Shown: positions 4,234 through 37,397 of the stretch, in pieces | Layout: each line of letters opens with the position of its first letter | Numbering within the stretch: position 1 is the stretch's first letter | Origin: Acidobacteriota bacterium | Lineage (GTDB): Bacteria; Acidobacteriota; Terriglobia; UBA7540 | Assembly: GCA_003225365.1 (NCBI GenBank) | Contig: QHZN01000084.1 | Span: 1 to 37,397, forward strand | Length of the DNA stretch: 37,397 bases | Direction of reading: 5' to 3' | The notes under the pieces: generated by a model | What the model was told of the DNA's origin: nothing | Database searches by the model: none | The model's input: only the letters and a program-made list of their open reading frames with translations | Translations under genes and position numbers: made by a program

Positions 4234-4311
4234 CTTAAAGGTTGAAGTGCGGCTTAGCGGAGAAGGTTCTCCGTCGCAGGCCATTCAACCTTCAACCTTC
4301 ACCCTTAACAA
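4234..4311. repeat. short inverted 7-nt repeats without an enclosed gene (heptad locus 2)
   Basis: The left arm reads ttaaagg and ttgaagt (from 4235). The right arm reads ttcaacc, ttcaacc, ttcaccc, ttaacaa (4284-4311), complementary in theme. Between them is a small perfect palindrome, cggagaa-gg-ttctccg (about 4258-4273). The locus lies between the convergent DedA and M61 genes and is not adjacent to either stop codon. The rest of the 181-base gap (4173-4353) shows nothing else I can name. Confidence 0.55.
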
Positions 4312-16828: not shown

Positions 16829-18604
16829 ATGACCAACCGAAAAGCAGACCGAACGAAACGGCAACCCTTCGACCCTTCGACTGCGCTCAGGGCCTTCGGC
16901 TGCGCTCAGGGCCTTGGGCCTGGCAGAAGGGAGGAGGGAGTGGCTCTGATTCTGGTCTTGCTCGCCATGTTGGTGATGAGCGCATTGGCGGCGGCGATTG
17001 TTTATACGGCTCGAGCGGAAACCTTCGCCAGCAACAACTATAAACTGGAGACAGAAGCGGACTACCTGGCCAAGGCAGGAATCCAGCGTGCCGTCAACTG
17101 GTTCCGCAGCAACCACTACCAGACAGTTCAGCAGGCGCAGGCCAGCACTTATTATGCTGTGACTTCCACGGGCACGCCCTACAACCTTTACACTTCCAAC
17201 AACTCGCCCGTGAACTGCGCCTCGGGCTGTTCTTCATCGAATTCGGCCGTGCAGTTTATTGGATACGGGTCGGGGTCCACAAATTTCCCGAGTATCTCCA
17301 ACACGGCAAGCCCTTCGACCGCCGTGACCTCGGCGTTCGCGTCGGATTTGGTGAATGTTCCGGTGACGGCTTCAAATGGAAACAATCTGGGATCTTTTTC
17401 GATTCGGGCGACGTTGATCAATTATCAGACGGTGGGTTTGGGCACGGACCCTCCCTACACGATAGTTCCAGTGGAAACCTGGTCGGTGACGTCTCTCGGC
17501 ACCTACACGGGAGGACAAGGATTAACCTTGGCCACGGCCGAGGAGTCAGCAATCGTTCAGCCGGTATTCATACCAACATGGGGGAACGCCCTTTATGGCT
17601 TTTGCGGGGTCACCATGACCGGCAGTGCGGGGACCTGCACCGATGCCTTCAATTCAGCTTTCGGCGCTTACGGCGGCGGCAGCAACGCGACCGCCGCGGG
17701 CGCGTGCGATTCGACGACGGCGACTAACGTCATCGCCGCCGGCGCCAACGTTGGCGCCAACGGCGGCGTGACACTCGGCTCGAACGTCACGGTGGCCGGG
17801 AACGTCGTCATCGGCAGCGGCTCGACCTCGGGTTGTACCGCCAACGGGTACAGCGGGAGCACCACCTCGGTTAGAGGCCAAGTGATTAACGGGCCGCATA
17901 AATCAGCGCCTCCGGCGCCTTCGTTTCGCTCGGGTTTCCCCGGCACCTCGCCGAGCTACCCGCTGGGGGTGGGCGACGTGCTGACGTTGCCGGTTAACGG
18001 GACTTGGTCTAACACCCCTTTCCCCGAAACCGGTGGTCTCCCAAGTCCGCCAACCAACTCCCCCACCTGCATGAATAACGACGGCACATGCAACGGTACG
18101 TCGGCGCATCCTTACGAAATCAGCAGCATTTCCATGACCGGCGGCGGCAATGGCCCCAATTCGCCGATTCTTAAATTTGTGGGCAGCAACAATCCAGCAG
18201 CCCCGATTTATTACGACATCGACAGCTTGTCGCAGAACCAGGGTCAGATCAACGTTTCGGGCTACGTCGTTCTGAACATTCAATCCGGGCTCAGCATCGG
18301 GGGTCTGGGAGTCTCAAACGGCATCAGCAACGACATTCCTCCCGAGTACCTGGAGATGAACTACGCAGGAACCTCGGCGGTGAGCATTAACGGCAACGGA
18401 GCGGTTTCAGCCGTGATCAACGCGCCGAATGCAAGTGTAGACTTGGGGGGCGGCGGGAGCGGCGGGTACTTCGTCGGTGCAATCCAGGCCAATAACGTCA
18501 GCGTCGTGGGGGGCTACCCTGTTCATTATGACCTCCAACTCTCGCGCATGGGGGGATTGTTGGGCGTTATCACCACCACCGCTTTCTCGCGGCAAAAAAT
18601 GTAG
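16829..18604 (+). CDS. PilX-like pilus assembly protein with repeat-bearing leader
   Basis: A 591-residue protein whose N-terminus matches PilX proteins: REEG^VALILVLLAMLVMSAL, a hydrophobic helix, then AEADYLAKAG-like text (ETEADYLAKAGIQRAVNWF). It lacks Glu at +5, as PilX members often do. The leader is 37 residues and contains two tandem copies of the dispersed palindrome (16866-16925), read as PSTALRAFGCAQGLGPG. The start ATG at 16829 has AAGGAG nine bases upstream, 12 bases after the pilW stop. The rest is low-complexity Gly/Asn/Ser/Thr-rich with regular GSNVTVAGNVVIG-like strands, compatible with a beta-solenoid, and ends without a second membrane segment. It closes the pilin operon; no PilY1 adhesin gene follows. 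Confidence 0.75.
   Translation: MTNRKADRTKRQPFDPSTALRAFGCAQGLGPGRREEGVALILVLLAMLVMSALAAAIVYTARAETFASNNYKLETEADYLAKAGIQRAVNWFRSNHYQTVQQAQASTYYAVTSTGTPYNLYTSNNSPVNCASGCSSSNSAVQFIGYGSGSTNFPSISNTASPSTAVTSAFASDLVNVPVTASNGNNLGSFSIRATLINYQTVGLGTDPPYTIVPVETWSVTSLGTYTGGQGLTLATAEESAIVQPVFIPTWGNALYGFCGVTMTGSAGTCTDAFNSAFGAYGGGSNATAAGACDSTTATNVIAAGANVGANGGVTLGSNVTVAGNVVIGSGSTSGCTANGYSGSTTSVRGQVINGPHKSAPPAPSFRSGFPGTSPSYPLGVGDVLTLPVNGTWSNTPFPETGGLPSPPTNSPTCMNNDGTCNGTSAHPYEISSISMTGGGNGPNSPILKFVGSNNPAAPIYYDIDSLSQNQGQINVSGYVVLNIQSGLSIGGLGVSNGISNDIPPEYLEMNYAGTSAVSINGNGAVSAVINAPNASVDLGGGGSGGYFVGAIQANNVSVVGGYPVHYDLQLSRMGGLLGVITTTAFSRQKM
16866..16925. repeat. tandem palindromic repeats within the pilX-like leader
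   Basis: The unit CCTTCGACTGCGCTCAGGG is followed at once by CCTTCGGCTGCGCTCAGGG and a partial third start. Both are copies of the dispersed palindrome seen in other genes here. They lie between the start codon and the prepilin cleavage region and keep the reading frame. Confidence 0.85.
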
Positions 18605-25533: not shown

Positions 25534-26082
25534 ATGAAATTCGTCGAAGCCTTTCGCCACTCGAAGCGCGGCGAGTCGAAAGGGCTGAACGAAGAGGGTC
25601 GAGAACTCGCCCGGCGCGCCCGTCCGCTCTTGGCGCCGCGCTACGACCTGTGCGTGTCCAGTCCCAAGGAGCGCGCCCGCGAGACCATGGAGGTTTTTGG
25701 CTTCCCCAGCTACGATGTGGACGAGGCCTTCACGGCCGTCAATCCCTGGGAGCCCTTCGACGAGGCGGTCACAAAGCTGGCCAAGGAAAAAGGCATCACC
25801 CCGCTCGCCGCCTGCTGGTTCGTTCCCGAGGCCCTCAAATACCTGCGCTTCCAAGGAGAAACATTGCTCGGGGCTATCCATCGCATCGCGCGCAAGCTTC
25901 CGGAAGGCGGCCGGGCCCTGGTCGTCACGCACGGCGGCATTCTCGAAGCGGCGGCGCTCTTGGGCGGTCCGCGCTATGAACTCGATGAGCTGGGCGGCGA
26001 AATCAGTTTTGCCGAAGGCGTCGTGTTCAAGTTCGACGGAGAGAAACTGACCGGCGTGGATGTCAAAAGGCTTGTGGAATAA
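25534..26082 (+). CDS. histidine phosphatase superfamily protein (SixA-like)
   Basis: A 182-residue protein of the phosphoglycerate-mutase/SixA superfamily. The N-terminal nucleophile motif is VEAFRHSKRGES, in place of the usual RHG; then comes LNEEGRELARRARPLL, with CVSSPKERARETME (second Arg) and VVTHGGILEA (second His). The catalytic His and Arg residues are present. It probably removes phosphate from a small molecule or phosphohistidine; the exact target is unknown. It starts three bases after the hydrolase stop, so the pair is one operon. Its TAA stop is immediately followed by the left heptad array (26083), with no space for a terminator. Confidence 0.8.
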   Translation: MKFVEAFRHSKRGESKGLNEEGRELARRARPLLAPRYDLCVSSPKERARETMEVFGFPSYDVDEAFTAVNPWEPFDEAVTKLAKEKGITPLAACWFVPEALKYLRFQGETLLGAIHRIARKLPEGGRALVVTHGGILEAAALLGGPRYELDELGGEISFAEGVVFKFDGEKLTGVDVKRLVE

Positions 26083-26131
26083 GGATGAAGTGTGAAGGAT
26101 GAAGGGTGAAGGATGAAGTACGAAGGATGAA
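26083..26131. repeat. left arm of heptad locus 3
   Basis: Seven consecutive 7-nt units: ggatgaa, gtgtgaa, ggatgaa, gggtgaa, ggatgaa, gtacgaa, ggatgaa. The array begins at the first base after the phosphatase stop. Its theme is the reverse complement of the right arm at 26533-26620, with the S23 gene between. Confidence 0.9.
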
Positions 26132-26141
26132 ATGGCGCTGT

Positions 26142-26537
26142 TTATTCCTCGCTCCTGCGCCCTTCGGGTTGCCTCTTGATCTTGACGATAATTGCAGTGA
26201 TGATAGCGACGAGCTCGTCTCTTTCCTGGATGATGGAATTCAGCCGCTCATTGGAAAGAATTCTTGATTCCGCGAGAAGACGTAACCAATACAAGCTTTC
26301 ACGCGCCTCCTTCTGAGCGATGCCGTACTTATGGATGAAGTCCGCTCGACTCTCGCCTGACTGCGCCTCCTCGATGTTTGCGCCAATTGAGGTAGCGCTC
26401 TTGAGGTATTGCCGGCCGAGCGCCCACCCGGCCCCATCCTTTCGTTTCACCAACGCCTGGTAGAGTTTTATCGCTCTCAGGGCATAGGCGAACGACCTTT
26501 GCCTTATGTCTTGGGCATTTCCCCCTTCAAACTTCAT
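26142..26537 (-). CDS. four-helix-bundle protein (S23/bIVP family), first copy
   Basis: A 131-residue all-helical protein of the S23 family, named after ORFs in 23S rRNA intervening sequences and related to Avd of diversity-generating retroelements. The core is SFAYALRAIKLYQALVKRK, then LGRQYLKSATSIGANIEEAQ with the family N-(I/V)-x-E pattern, SRADFIHKYGIAQKEARESL and YWLRLLAESRIL. The function of stand-alone members is unknown; basic pentamers that bind nucleic acid are known for relatives. The ATG at 26537 lies inside the first unit of the right heptad array (ggATGAA on its strand), and the preceding GAAGG of the array would serve as the ribosome site. The gene is thus bounded by inverted arrays and is not in rRNA. 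Confidence 0.85.
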   Translation of the reverse strand: MKFEGGNAQDIRQRSFAYALRAIKLYQALVKRKDGAGWALGRQYLKSATSIGANIEEAQSGESRADFIHKYGIAQKEARESLYWLRLLAESRILSNERLNSIIQERDELVAIITAIIVKIKRQPEGRRSEE

Positions 26538-26620
26538 CCTTCAGCCTTCATACTTTAACCTTCACCCTTCATCCTTATCATTTCATACTTTAACCTTCAC
26601 CCTTCATCCTTATCATTTCG
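26533..26620. repeat. right arm of heptad locus 3
   Basis: Twelve 7-nt units: ttcatcc, ttcagcc, then the block ttcatac, tttaacc, ttcaccc, ttcatcc, ttatcat twice. The two 35-nt blocks (26547-26581 and 26582-26616) are identical, showing recent tandem duplication by whole units. The array includes the S23 start codon and ends ten bases from the secA stop. Confidence 0.92.
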
Positions 26621-30468: not shown

Positions 30469-30852
30469 ATGAAGACAGCGGGCGCAATACTAGGTCTGGT
30501 GCTGGCGCTGGCGGCCGGCTACTTCGTTTTTAAGTATGAGTTCAGTCAAGGTCCCGCGGGCACGGCCTCTCCCAAAGTAGCGATCGACGTCACCGGCGTG
30601 AAAAGCGATTTGCTGACGATCGGCCAGGCCGAGCGCGCCTACATGGTGAGCAAGGGCAGCTACGGCTCGCTCGACCAGCTCCAGCAGGACGGCGACCTAA
30701 CTTTCTCCGGCGGCGACCGCCGCGGCTACCACTACGACGCCACGGCCGATGACGGGACGCACTTCAAAATCACCGCCACACCCTCCGACCCCGCTAAACA
30801 GGGATGGCCGACGCTGAGCATTGACGAGACCATGCAGATCCAACAGCAATGA
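30469..30852 (+). CDS. small membrane-anchored pilin-like protein
   Basis: A 127-residue protein: one N-terminal helix (MKTAGAILGLVLALAAGYFVFKY), a short linker, then LLTIGQAERAYMVSKGSYGS, LDQLQQDGDL and a compact C-terminal domain ending IDETMQIQQQ. The segment TIGQAERAYMVSKGSYGSL resembles the first globular part of type IV pilins and pseudopilins, which read as T-x-x-A-x-x-x-Y-x-x-x-x-G-x-(Y/F). There is no prepilin cleavage motif, so it would remain anchored. The ATG at 30469 follows a GGAGGGG site. The TGA stop overlaps the first base of the heptad array at 30852. Function unknown; it may be a lipid-exposed pilus-related or scaffold protein. Confidence 0.65.
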   Translation: MKTAGAILGLVLALAAGYFVFKYEFSQGPAGTASPKVAIDVTGVKSDLLTIGQAERAYMVSKGSYGSLDQLQQDGDLTFSGGDRRGYHYDATADDGTHFKITATPSDPAKQGWPTLSIDETMQIQQQ

Positions 30853-31049
30853 GAAGTCAGAATTCAGAAGCTAGAAGTCAGAAGGTCGCAGTGAACGGTG
30901 GGAAGCCAAGCAATCAAGCGCTGGAAGCCACAAGCAAGGGGCAGATGCAAGGACGCAGAGCTGAGCGGTGCGGCATGCTAATCTTCCTGACAGATGAACA
31001 TGAGGTTTCCTTCCCTTCTGGCTCCTGACTTCTGGCTTCTGACTTCTCG
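30852..31049. repeat. inverted 7-nt arrays without an S23 gene (heptad locus 4)
   Basis: Left array: agaagtc, agaattc, agaagct, agaagtc, agaaggt (30852-30886), starting with the A of the preceding TGA stop. Right array: cttctgg, ctcctga, cttctgg, cttctga, cttctcg (31015-31049), complementary in theme. The 128 bases between them have no convincing gene but contain diverged gaagccaag/gaagccaca units. It looks like a heptad locus with no gene, or one that has lost it. Confidence 0.85.
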
Positions 31050-33143: not shown

Positions 33144-33428
33144 GTGATTGTCAGCTATCGGGACAAGCGGACCGGAGACTTCGCCGCAGGGAAAAGGGTC
33201 AAAGCGTTCTCTGGGTTTGAACGCTCCGCGCGACTGAAGCTTGACCGACTGGAGGCGGCAACGTCACTGAAAGATCTTGCCGTGTTGCCCGGCAATCGTT
33301 TTGAGGCCCTCGTCGGCGACCGCAAAGGCCAATTCAGCATCCGTATTAACGATCAATGGCGGATTTGTTTCGAATGGCCGGACCGATCGCCGGGACCATC
33401 AAACGTGGAGATCGTTGATTACCATTAG
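33144..33428 (+). CDS. higB: HigB/RelE-type toxin
   Basis: A 94-residue toxin of the HigB branch of the RelE/ParE superfamily. The C-terminal half is typical: LKDLAVLPGNRFEALVGDRK, then GQFSIRINDQWRICFEW and VEIVDYH at the end, as in plasmid-maintenance HigB (L-x-x-P-x-x-R-x-x-x-L-x-G, Y/F-S-I-R-(I/V)-N-x-Q-W-R-I-x-F). These toxins cleave mRNA on the ribosome. The start is a GTG at 33144 without a ribosome site, close to the predicted transcript start, so translation may be leaderless. The order toxin first, antitoxin second is that of hig operons. The antitoxin starts ten bases after its stop. Confidence 0.88.
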   Translation: MIVSYRDKRTGDFAAGKRVKAFSGFERSARLKLDRLEAATSLKDLAVLPGNRFEALVGDRKGQFSIRINDQWRICFEWPDRSPGPSNVEIVDYH

Positions 33429-33438
33429 GGGGACCGTC

Positions 33439-33741
33439 ATGAGACTTACTGCAATCCATCCCGGTGAACACTTGGCCACGGAACTGGAAGCACTCGATAT
33501 GAGCGCGGCAGAACTGGCTCGAAAGGTCGGTGTGCCCACCAATCGCATCACGCAAATTTTGAATGGGAGGCGCGGCATTACAGGCGACACCGCTTTGCGC
33601 CTCGCTCATTTCTTTGGCACAAGCGCGCGGTTTTGGCTCAATCTACAGAGCCTCTATGATCTGAGAATCGCCGAGGAGAGAGCCGGGAAATCTATCCAAG
33701 CACTTCCCAGACTAAAAAGGCAGGAGCCTCTGCAAGTATAA
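33439..33741 (+). CDS. higA: HigA-type antitoxin, XRE-family DNA-binding protein
   Basis: A 100-residue protein: AIHPGEHLATELEALDMSAA, then ELARKVGVPTNRITQILNGR, RGITGDTALRLAHFFGTSARFWLNLQSLYDL. The helix-turn-helix and the F-W-(L/M)-N-L-Q end are diagnostic of HigA. It neutralises HigB and represses the operon through the palindrome upstream. A strong AGGGGGA site precedes the ATG at 33439, stronger than that of the toxin, which fits the antitoxin being made in excess. The pair is bracketed by direct repeats of the upstream gene's 3' end (33044-33080, 33774-33810). Confidence 0.92.
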   Translation: MRLTAIHPGEHLATELEALDMSAAELARKVGVPTNRITQILNGRRGITGDTALRLAHFFGTSARFWLNLQSLYDLRIAEERAGKSIQALPRLKRQEPLQV

Positions 33742-35021: not shown

Positions 35022-36209
35022 ATGAACAAGCTGACTATCCGTGACGCGGAGCCGGCGGGCCGGCGGCTCTTCCTCCGCGTGGACTTCAACGTCCCGCTCG
35101 ACTCGAAAGGAGCGATCAGCGACGACACGCGCATCCAGGCCTCGCTCCCCACAATTCGTTACGGCATCGAGCACGGCGCCAAACTGATTCTCGCCTCGCA
35201 CCTCGGCCGCCCCAAGGGCCAGCCGGTAGGCTCCATGACCCTCCGTCCGGCGGCGGAACGGCTGGCGGAGCTCGTCCGTAGCCCCGTCGCCTTTGCGAAC
35301 GACTGCGTGGGGCCGGAAGTCGAAGCGCAGGCGCGGGGGCTTGCGGCGGGCGGCGTTCTGCTACTCGAAAACCTTCGCTTTCATCCTGAGGAAGAGAAAA
35401 ATGAGGAGGGATTCTCGCGCCGGCTCGCCGCGCTCGCCGATTTGTACGTCAATGACGCGTTCGGCTCCGCGCACCGCGCGCACGCTTCGACCGTGGGCAT
35501 CACCAAGTACCTTGCGCCGGCCTTGGCAGGGTTCCTGATGGAGCGCGAAATCAATTACCTCTCGAAAGCCGTGGAGAACCCGGCGCGGCCTTACACGGCC
35601 ATCGTGGGAGGCGCAAAAGTTTCCGACAAGATGGAATTGCTCCAGAACCTGATGAAATTCGCCGACAACGTGCTGATCGGCGGCGCGATGGCGTACACGT
35701 TCTTGAAGGCGAGAGGGGTCGAGGTGGGAAAGTCCAGGGTTGAAGACGACAAGCTCGAGCTCGCGCGCAACATATTGAGCTTTGGCGAACGCCGCAGCAT
35801 CCGTATCCGGCTGCCCGAGGACCACGTCGTGACCGAAAAGCTCGAGGCGAGCGCGCACGGTGAAATCTCGGCCGGCGGCATTCCCGCCGGTCGGCTGGGG
35901 GCGGACATCGGCCCGGCCACGCGCGCCCAATACGCCGCGGTCATCGCAGATTCGAAGACCATCGTCTGGAACGGGCCCCTGGGGGTTTTTGAAATCCCGC
36001 AGTTTGCCGAAGGCACGCTCGCCGTGGCGCGCGCCGTGGCCGCCTCCTCCGCTGTTTCGATTGTTGGTGGAGGCGATTCCGCAGCGGCCGTCCATTTGGC
36101 GGGGGTTGGAGAAAAAATCACGCACGTCTCGACCGGCGGCGGCGCCACGCTCGAATTCCTGTCGGGGCGGAAACTGCCCGGAGTCGAAGCCCTTACGGAC
36201 AGGGAGTAG
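35022..36209 (+). CDS. pgk: phosphoglycerate kinase
   Basis: A 395-residue glycolytic kinase that transfers phosphate from 1,3-bisphosphoglycerate to ADP. Motifs: FLRVDFNVPLD, RIQASLPTIRYGIEHGAKLI, SHLGRPKG, ENLRFHPEEEKN, DLYVNDAFGSAHRAHAS, AIVGGAKVSDKMELLQNLM, and the C-terminal nucleotide site VWNGPLGVFEIPQFAEGT with GGGDSAAAVH and VSTGGGATLEFLSG. Length is typical. The ribosome site is weak. It starts 40 bases after gapA. The last codons (DRE and TAG, 36201-36209) lie inside the left heptad array of the S23 cassette, so the normal 3' end has been replaced by repeat units with little change to the protein. Confidence 0.97.
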   Translation: MNKLTIRDAEPAGRRLFLRVDFNVPLDSKGAISDDTRIQASLPTIRYGIEHGAKLILASHLGRPKGQPVGSMTLRPAAERLAELVRSPVAFANDCVGPEVEAQARGLAAGGVLLLENLRFHPEEEKNEEGFSRRLAALADLYVNDAFGSAHRAHASTVGITKYLAPALAGFLMEREINYLSKAVENPARPYTAIVGGAKVSDKMELLQNLMKFADNVLIGGAMAYTFLKARGVEVGKSRVEDDKLELARNILSFGERRSIRIRLPEDHVVTEKLEASAHGEISAGGIPAGRLGADIGPATRAQYAAVIADSKTIVWNGPLGVFEIPQFAEGTLAVARAVAASSAVSIVGGGDSAAAVHLAGVGEKITHVSTGGGATLEFLSGRKLPGVEALTDRE

Positions 36210-36229
36210 GGAGTCGGGAATGGCGAGTC
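36202..36229. repeat. left arm of heptad locus 5
   Basis: Units gggagta, gggagtc, gggaatg, gcgagtc. The array contains both the pgk stop (TAG 36207-36209) and the S23 start (ATG 36220-36222), and its GGGAG units would serve as the S23 ribosome site. The theme is complementary to the right arm at 36662-36689. Confidence 0.88.
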
Positions 36230-36645
36230 GCGGAGAAACCGTGGAGAGGGAGGCACATGCCCTTACACACTCAGGAAGTGCGATCCGGTCTTACCGCGAT
36301 TTGCGCGTTTGGCAGAAGGCAATGGAACTGGCCGAGCGCTGCTATCGTGCAACTCAATCCTTCCCCAAAGAAGAGCTCTACGGCGCAGTTACACAAATTC
36401 GGCGGGCGGCGGCTTCAGTTCCCGCTAACATCGCCGAGGGAAACGGTCGCGAGAATCGTGGCGAATACATTCAATTTCTTCGAATTGCCCAGGGGTCGTT
36501 GAAAGAGCTCGAGACGCACGTCCTGCTTTCCCAGAGGGTTGGCTTGGCCACTGGACCAGCCGCAGAGCCGATCCTTGCCGACTGCGAGCTGGTCGGGAAG
36601 ATGCTCCGAGCCCTCATACGGTCTCTACAGGAAAAGGGGAGATAG
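36220..36645 (+). CDS. four-helix-bundle protein (S23/bIVP family), second copy
   Basis: A 141-residue member with the textbook core: SYRDLRVWQKAMELAERCYR, then FPKEELYGAVTQIRRAAASV, PANIAEGNGRENRGEYIQFL and RIAQGSLKELETHVLLSQRV. The first 22 residues (MASRGETVEREAHALTHSGS) are array-derived or non-conserved; no other in-frame start precedes the core. The family is linked to 23S rRNA intervening sequences and to Avd of diversity-generating retroelements; the role of lone copies is unknown. It sits between pgk and tpiA on the operon strand, so it should be co-transcribed with glycolytic genes. It is only distantly similar to the copy at 26142-26537, so the two are not a recent duplication. Confidence 0.92.
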   Translation: MASRGETVEREAHALTHSGSAIRSYRDLRVWQKAMELAERCYRATQSFPKEELYGAVTQIRRAAASVPANIAEGNGRENRGEYIQFLRIAQGSLKELETHVLLSQRVGLATGPAAEPILADCELVGKMLRALIRSLQEKGR

Positions 36646-36661
36646 CGGTCCGGCCCTTGGC

Positions 36662-36689
36662 GACTCCCTACTCCCCACTCCCTATCTCC
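36662..36689. repeat. right arm of heptad locus 5
   Basis: Units gactccc, tactccc, cactccc, tatctcc, the reverse-complement theme of the left arm. In addition ctatctccc (36682-36690) pairs perfectly with gggagatag at the S23 stop (36637-36645). The array ends 18 bases before the tpiA start. Confidence 0.88.
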
Positions 36690-36707
36690 CGTTTTCGAGT
36701 TTTTCCG

Positions 36708-37397
36708 ATGCGTCGTGCGATCATTGCGGGAAACTGGAAGATGTATAAGACCATCGCGGAGGCGGTGGACTTCATGAGCGGGCTGAAGCCGCGGGTGGAG
36801 GACGCCGGCCACTGTGAGGTCGTGGTCGCGCCGCCCTTCACGGCCCTCGGCGCCGTGGCGGATGCCGCGCGCGTCTCGCGCATCCAAGTCGCGGCGCAGG
36901 ACATCCATTGGGATCCGGAAGGCGCGCATACCGGAGACGTTTCCCCGCGCATGGTGCTCGATGCGGGCGCGACGTACGTCATCATTGGCCATTCCGAGCG
37001 GCGGCGCGACCACGGGGAGACCGACGAGCAAGTGAACCGCAAAGTCGGCGCGGCGCTTGCGGCAGGGCTCACGCCCATCGTCTGCGCAGGCGAGACGCTC
37101 GAAGAGCGCGAAGCGGGCCGCACCGCCGCCGTGCTCGAGCGCCAGTTTGCGGGCGGGTTCCGCGGATTGACCCCGCCGGATTTTTCCCGTATCATCATTG
37201 CTTACGAGCCGGTTTGGGCGATTGGCACGGGGCGCACGGCGACCCCGGAGATGGCCGCCGAAAGCCATGCCAAGTTGCGTTCGCTGGCGCGTGAAAGGTT
37301 CGGCGCGGAATTCGCCCAATCGTTACGAATTCTTTACGGCGGAAGCGTCAGGCCGGAAAATGTTCGCGGCTTAATGGCCCAGGAAGAAATCGACGGC
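36708..37397 (+). CDS. tpiA: triosephosphate isomerase (3' end cut by window edge)
   Basis: The first 230 residues of TIM, which interconverts dihydroxyacetone phosphate and glyceraldehyde-3-phosphate. AGNWKMYKT has the substrate Asn and Lys, YVIIGHSERRRDHGETDEQV the electrophilic His, and IIAYEPVWAIGTGRTATPEM the catalytic Glu and loop 6; RILYGGSVRPEN near the end binds phosphate. About 20 residues are missing at the window edge. No Shine-Dalgarno sequence is visible in the 18 bases between the heptad array and the ATG (ttttcgagtttttccg precedes it), which suggests that the array displaced the original leader and that translation may be weak or coupled to S23. Confidence 0.96.
   Translation, partial: MRRAIIAGNWKMYKTIAEAVDFMSGLKPRVEDAGHCEVVVAPPFTALGAVADAARVSRIQVAAQDIHWDPEGAHTGDVSPRMVLDAGATYVIIGHSERRRDHGETDEQVNRKVGAALAAGLTPIVCAGETLEEREAGRTAAVLERQFAGGFRGLTPPDFSRIIIAYEPVWAIGTGRTATPEMAAESHAKLRSLARERFGAEFAQSLRILYGGSVRPENVRGLMAQEEIDG

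Follow-up and report, generated by a model that had tools for sequence, protein, structure and literature searches.

The window, meaning the whole stretch of 37,397 nucleotides that was analysed, originates from an Acidobacteriota bacterium and carries near its end, all on the forward strand, pgk (35022-36209), an S23 gene (36220-36645) and tpiA (36708-37397, running past the end of the window). The S23 gene encodes a four-helix bundle protein of 141 aa that matches PF05635 (23S_rRNA_IVP, 4.7e-37). It is bounded on the left by an array of four heptanucleotide units (36202-36229; GGGAGTA GGGAGTC GGGAATG GCGAGTC) and on the right by an inverted array (36662-36690; units GACTCCC, TACTCCC, CACTCCC and TATCTCCC). 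This arrangement, an S23 gene between pgk and tpiA enclosed by inverted 7-nt arrays, had been proposed in a first-pass annotation and was confirmed in the sequence, by TRF, by inverted pairing and by flank alignment. TRF assigned a period of 7 to both arrays, and in a repeat search they paired as inverted arms of 23-27 nt with 81-87% complementarity. Smith-Waterman alignment of the left flank to the reverse-complemented right flank gave a score of 17.0; 30 dinucleotide shuffles did not exceed 12.5, and pairings with the flanks of other elements did not exceed 11.5. As the annotation had also stated, the left array holds both the pgk stop codon (TAG, 36207-36209) and the S23 start codon (ATG, 36220-36222). 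Its placement of the element was correct, while the end had to be moved from 36689 to 36690, the fourth unit of the right array being 8 nt long and not 7. The Pgk C-terminus, the stop codon of which is supplied within the left array, reads LTDRE* in the window versus LTDK*, LTEK* or LTDR* in relatives. S23 is the only protein encoded between the arms, with neither a transposase nor a recombinase present. The element lies between pgk and tpiA, hence not inside an rRNA gene.

A second element of the same layout is located behind secA on the reverse strand (26081-26619). It contains an S23 gene of a different subfamily (26142-26537, 131 aa; PF05635, 3.6e-20) with AAGGATG-type arrays on both sides, of which the 5' array (26522-26619) begins about 11 nt past the secA stop codon and the 3' array (26081-26131) is inverted relative to it. 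Within the 5' array a 35-nt higher-order duplication was seen. The window further harbors a heptad pair without S23 on the forward strand, consisting of a left array of the AGAAGTC type (30852-30884) and a right array of the CTTCTGA type (31015-31047), which are separated by a 130-nt core and share their heptad type with an S23 element elsewhere in the genome (L005). Nested heptad hairpins occur at 1617-1764, where a GTTGAAA-type pair lies within a GTCCGTGG / CCACGGAC pair whose pyrimidine-rich arm comes first, the reverse of the usual order, and a weak heptad hairpin (AAGGTTGAAG / CTTCAACCTTCACCC) is present at 4239-4310. Tandem CCTTCGACTGCGCTCAGGG units at 16864-16915 represent a further dispersed repeat, and similar-looking pieces (cttcgctcaggatgaca) were found in the loops of heptad hairpins of the relative G042. 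A HigB/HigA-like toxin-antitoxin pair (33144-33741) lies immediately upstream of gapA.

S23 genes are known mainly from insertions in rRNA genes. Structures of the family have been available since 2006 and, to our knowledge, no function is known; nor do we know of a catalytic domain in S23. Both proteins of the window scored above the curated PF05635 cut-off of 33.8 bits (126.9 bits for 36220-36645, 72.6 bits for 26142-26537). The AF2 model of S23 is a four-helix bundle (pLDDT 96) that superimposes on 2gsc with a TM of 0.89-0.93 and on 2rld with a TM of 0.85-0.88. Its fold also matches bAvd (4dwl) and chains of the RNP of diversity-generating retroelements (DGR; probability 1.00, E about 0.1), and the bAvd profile gave a weak hit of 20.1 bits at a cut-off of 40. 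The 2gsc entry contains five chains and is described, in the passage of PMC4990558 that cites it, as a homopentameric torus. By homology, S23 forms a ring of five four-helix bundles and is a relative of the Avd of DGRs. The arms comprise a median of 5.7-5.9 units. Binding of heptads by S23, one per subunit, is an inference.

To determine how general this arrangement is, 203 S23 genes with both flanks in hand were assembled from the same genome, its relatives, named genomes of many phyla and cyanobacterial plasmids; genome contigs were searched with a single protein as query, and most of the genomes compared are draft assemblies. Inverted heptad arms were present around 145 of the 203 genes and a one-sided array around 30 more, so that about 29% failed the two-arm criterion. 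When the same criterion of arms plus period was applied to random 420-nt cores, it was met by only 2 of 1500 in the own genome, 0 of 1500 in a relative and 3 of 1500 in the named loci. Mean autocorrelation in S23 flanks was highest at lag 7 (0.35-0.41) and lag 14 (0.34-0.38), compared with 0.23-0.30 at the remaining tested lags. Lack of period-7 or inverted-flank enrichment around other S23 genes would have refuted the first-pass annotation, and the opposite was found. Both the criterion for arms and the heptad profiles were set with the data in view, against which random cores, mismatched pairings and permutations guard only partly.

The own genome encodes 17 S23 genes. For 16 of these the flank-to-flank score exceeded the mean of mismatched pairings, and for most it exceeded every mismatched pairing; nearly each element had a distinct heptad. 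Lag-7 arrays occurred at about 100 per Mb in this genome, versus 0-18 per Mb for periods 4-6 and 8-13 (period 14 being a harmonic). As tandem, intergenic and dispersed 7-nt units they meet the criterion for STRR or heptanucleotide repeats. The named loci include Hyphomicrobiales, cyanobacteria, Planctomycetota, Acidobacteria, Bacteroidetes, Treponema, Armatimonadetes, Latescibacterota, Omnitrophota and Chloroflexia, among others. In three relatives of the own genome, S23 loci were identical to named Acidobacteria records, from which an acidobacterial host of the window is inferred. Plasmids also bear S23 elements, nearly all of these copies being cyanobacterial, and no S23 relative was detected in viral-contig or phage collections. 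An exact-match motif test found no conserved 23S motif in any of the S23 loci that it covered. The heptad-flanked S23 arrangement is thus real and general.

The heptad sequence varied among elements and agreed between both arms of one element, with an arm profile similarity of 0.91 within elements, 0.44 between elements and 0.29 when the right arm was taken in direct orientation. At orthologous junctions the score between the arms of one element was 12.1, and it fell to 8.0 when arms from the same site were mismatched (p=7e-5), i.e. the two arms change together. Among elements at different insertion sites, mean heptad similarity climbed steadily from 0.37 to 0.83 with S23 identity, a correlation that none of 500 permutations reached. 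With only cross-phylum pairs considered, 1 of 1000 permutations made within phyla reached the match between heptad and S23 lineage. Elements whose S23 belongs to the same clade as the window gene come from Alphaproteobacteria, cyanobacteria, Planctomycetota, Armatimonadetes, Latescibacterota and Acidobacteria, and their heptads mostly read N[GC]A[GA]TNG. The count of one heptad pattern per genome (1564 matches in contrast to 40 of its reversed control) followed the number of S23 genes (rho 0.79 in the family; partial 0.72 after size, reverse transcriptase and Y1 transposase).

Elements were found at tight operon junctions, the genes of which were named from translated flanks. In this lineage pgk-tpiA, sucC-sucD, sdhA-sdhB, prfA-prmC, pdhB-E2 and metG-tatD are used, in Hyphomicrobiales nuoC-nuoD and nuoK-nuoL. 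The upstream neighbour was co-directional in 61 of 91 cases, and for these 61 elements the distance from the upstream stop codon to the start of the left arm had a median of 2 nt (interquartile range -15 to +7). Selection of heptads for stop codons in all frames was considered and rejected, left arms showing no enrichment (0.52 versus 0.49 in shuffled sequence). Both occupied and empty sites, which the first-pass annotation had proposed to compare, were found: pgk-tpiA and four other operon junctions were occupied or empty depending on the relative. Across relatives, sucC-sucD, pdhB-E2, sdhA-sdhB and prfA-prmC were empty, hairpin-only or S23-bearing, and the heptads differed while being matched in both arms. 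For instance, G017 and G002 had nothing at sucC-sucD, where G020 and G009 had only a hairpin. At pdhB-E2, the own genus carried S23 with AGTGGC heptads, G020 had an S23 from a different clade and with different heptads, three genomes had hairpins and G012 was empty. At sdhA-sdhB, the sister genome retained an apparent right-arm remnant. Other genes were observed in the slot downstream of pgk at eight loci of relatives, which, named from sequence only, comprise a DUF433-like/DUF5615-like pair, a Y1-transposase-like ORF, a DUF6544-like ORF and an ORF followed by S23.

Several pairs of elements were homologous from array to array, the homology ending at the arrays. The S23 elements of the cyanobacteria Nodosilinea and Phormidium share 86.5% identity over this extent and occupy two different positions within the same methylase-like gene (about 80% identical); the host frame is uninterrupted across the element, and S23 is read in another frame. 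At the site where Nodosilinea carries its S23 element, locus L131 has another kind of insert, which is palindromic, about 100 nt long (1722-1815; ccccctcatcccccaacccc...gggtgaggg) and in frame. Elements on plasmids of Trichormus and Nostoc were 78.3% identical over a 419-nt array-to-array block with unrelated flanks, and additional, weaker array-to-array pairs exist. Visual comparison of sites, none of which had near-identical flanks, revealed no evident target-site duplication. As judged from these alignments, the array-to-array blocks mark a mobile unit that moves with defined ends. S23 itself is under purifying selection, with dN/dS values of 0.04-0.39 in pairs with measurable divergence. 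Lineage-specific heptads, these moving blocks and the abundant hairpins without S23 described below go beyond what the first-pass annotation had recognized.

Arrays without S23 were more numerous than arrays that bear it. In G042 (L209-L224), 106 matches of the CAGRAGT heptad pattern were counted in a genome with one S23 gene, which has a different heptad type. In G042 and three other genomes the loops of hairpins lacking S23 formed no common family, and a MITE family with a conserved loop was rejected on this basis. Because S23-free arrays prevail and the single S23 of G042 does not match them, arrays may outlive S23 or may in part not depend on it. These observations would suit heptad hairpins that are independent intergenic repeats, generated by slippage and by fold-back copying of one arm onto the other, with S23 as a passenger in tolerant slots like other cargo; the other genes in the pgk-tpiA slot of some relatives would be such cargo, and copying from arm to arm would account for the matched changes. 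A mere passenger, however, would be expected without lineage match, count correlation and unit movement, and it is disfavoured since heptads track the lineage of S23 at different sites and in different phyla, heptad number can be predicted from the number of S23 genes and array-S23-array blocks travel as units. We regard this explanation as unlikely, without being able to set it aside.

RNA folding paired the arms, with a z-score of only -2.2 for the whole element, and G-U mismatches did not significantly outnumber A-C mismatches (91 versus 70, p=0.11), a bias that would indicate pairing as RNA. That the arms pair as an RNA stem and that this stem is processed is inferred; neither cleavage nor IVS-like excision has been shown. 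A purely regulatory role at the RNA level is conceivable, in which the S23 ring binds mRNA heptads, comparable to TRAP, which binds spaced triplets, and regulates both its own translation and how the host operon genes are coupled, with the complementary arm as competing strand and without any mobility. The overlap of the left array with the S23 start codon in the window, the position within housekeeping operons (nuoC-nuoD, sucC-sucD, pgk-tpiA), the predominance of co-directional upstream neighbours and the approximately 5-6 units per arm set against five chains in the homologous structure are in line with this. Presence is patchy among close relatives, though, with the same junctions also found empty, some elements reside inside coding sequence, a significant G-U bias is lacking, and regulation alone leaves array-to-array movement unexplained, so that we consider such a regulator rather improbable. 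A retroelement, in which S23 as a relative of Avd helps a reverse transcriptase to copy element RNA into DNA, is hardly credible despite the fold match to bAvd and DGR RNP chains and the weak bAvd profile hit, as RVT_1 genes (PF00078 matches, partly counted in draft assemblies) track neither heptads (rho 0.08) nor S23 (0.18) in the family, eight genomes without an RVT_1 match contain more than 40 heptad matches and up to 23 S23 genes, and the single reverse transcriptase of the own genome is on contig C250, the window being C258; dependence on reverse transcriptase is thereby mostly refuted by genome counts. Dependence on a Y1 transposase/RAYT was also rejected, there being no correlation with heptads in the family (rho 0.10).

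We therefore favour small mobile elements, and the S23 unit of the window would be one copy of an element of about 430-540 bp with the structure heptad array, S23, inverted heptad array. Copies would insert mostly at the extreme 3' ends of operon genes and be read through by host transcription. S23 is proposed to recognise the heptads of its own lineage, probably with about one heptad per subunit and 5-6 units per arm, and through this recognition the two arrays would serve as the element's termini. The arms may form a stem of RNA (or DNA) around S23, as in the intervening sequences (IVS) of 23S rRNA, which would keep the insertion tolerable to the host, and S23-free hairpins could be deletion derivatives or derivatives mobilised in trans. 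As S23 has no catalytic domain known to us, the mechanism of movement remains open. If S23 does bind heptads, which is an inference, movement must use host enzymes, which is a further inference. Overall, these elements probably constitute one family that is small, mobile and IVS-like but located outside rRNA, with S23 as the heptad reader and the arms as the stem.

The closest known counterparts are the 23S rRNA IVS of Coxiella and Leptospira (428-444 nt), which likewise have an S23 ORF in the loop and complementary ends as a stem. In the Coxiella IVS, three GACAGAT heptamers are located at the RNase III site in the stem enclosing the S23 ORF, and these tandem heptamers vary in number (PMC4990558). 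This strengthens the comparison with IVS drawn in the first-pass annotation, the reading of which is supported; the complementary ends hold, and RNA excision has not been shown. In contrast to 23S IVS, the elements of this study lie outside rRNA, in most cases at the ends of genes within protein-coding operons, and number many per genome, and their S23 is under purifying selection, whereas that of Coxiella is described as decaying and probably not expressed. Since the criterion of lying in rRNA is not met, we do not class them as IVS, only as IVS-like in layout. The annotation had further supposed that heptad-bounded S23 units were undescribed. No paper joining S23 with heptad arrays as a general rule was found (subscription papers and preprints were outside the search), the only published link being the heptamers in the stem of the Coxiella IVS (PMC4990558).

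Heptanucleotide repeats, being tandem, intergenic 7-nt units like the arrays here, are known as STRR of cyanobacteria, as GGGAATC arrays in Xanthomonas (PMC4692102) and as TAACTGA in Beggiatoaceae (PMC4679880). Those of Xanthomonas also lie close to stop codons and form 70-75 convergent inverted pairs per genome (PMC4692102); XCC0516, an S23 homolog of solved structure, comes from Xanthomonas campestris. A text search found S23 unmentioned in PMC4692102 and PMC4679880; the earlier heptanucleotide-repeat papers thus name no protein partner, whereas the arrays described here are tied to S23 and follow its lineage in sequence. The Avd of DGRs (bAvd, PF22296) shares the four-helix bundle pentamer and fold (4dwl, 8ub7), but S23 genes have no reverse transcriptase beside them and remain under the bAvd cut-off. 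REP/REPIN with RAYT similarly combine a gene between inverted short repeats with many gene-free hairpin copies; unlike these, our elements contain no Y1 transposase and their heptads vary from element to element in one genome.

These results point to a widespread, so far unnamed kind of mobile DNA element. More tentatively, with the odds slightly against it, it may form a separate pan-bacterial class of transposable elements, the sole protein of which is a non-enzymatic ring that reads, at either end, a 7-nt code specific to its lineage; rRNA IVS with S23 would then be members that landed in rRNA, and many bacterial heptanucleotide repeats would be non-autonomous debris. If true, this would join three loose ends, namely the role of S23, the origin of S23-bearing 23S rRNA IVS and the heptanucleotide repeats that lack an explanation in cyanobacteria, Xanthomonas and other bacteria. 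The S23-heptad system is testable with small purified proteins and synthetic oligonucleotides, and if S23 reads a heptad code, a small ring protein would be recognising sequence in a new manner, and an element would have a novel means of marking its ends.
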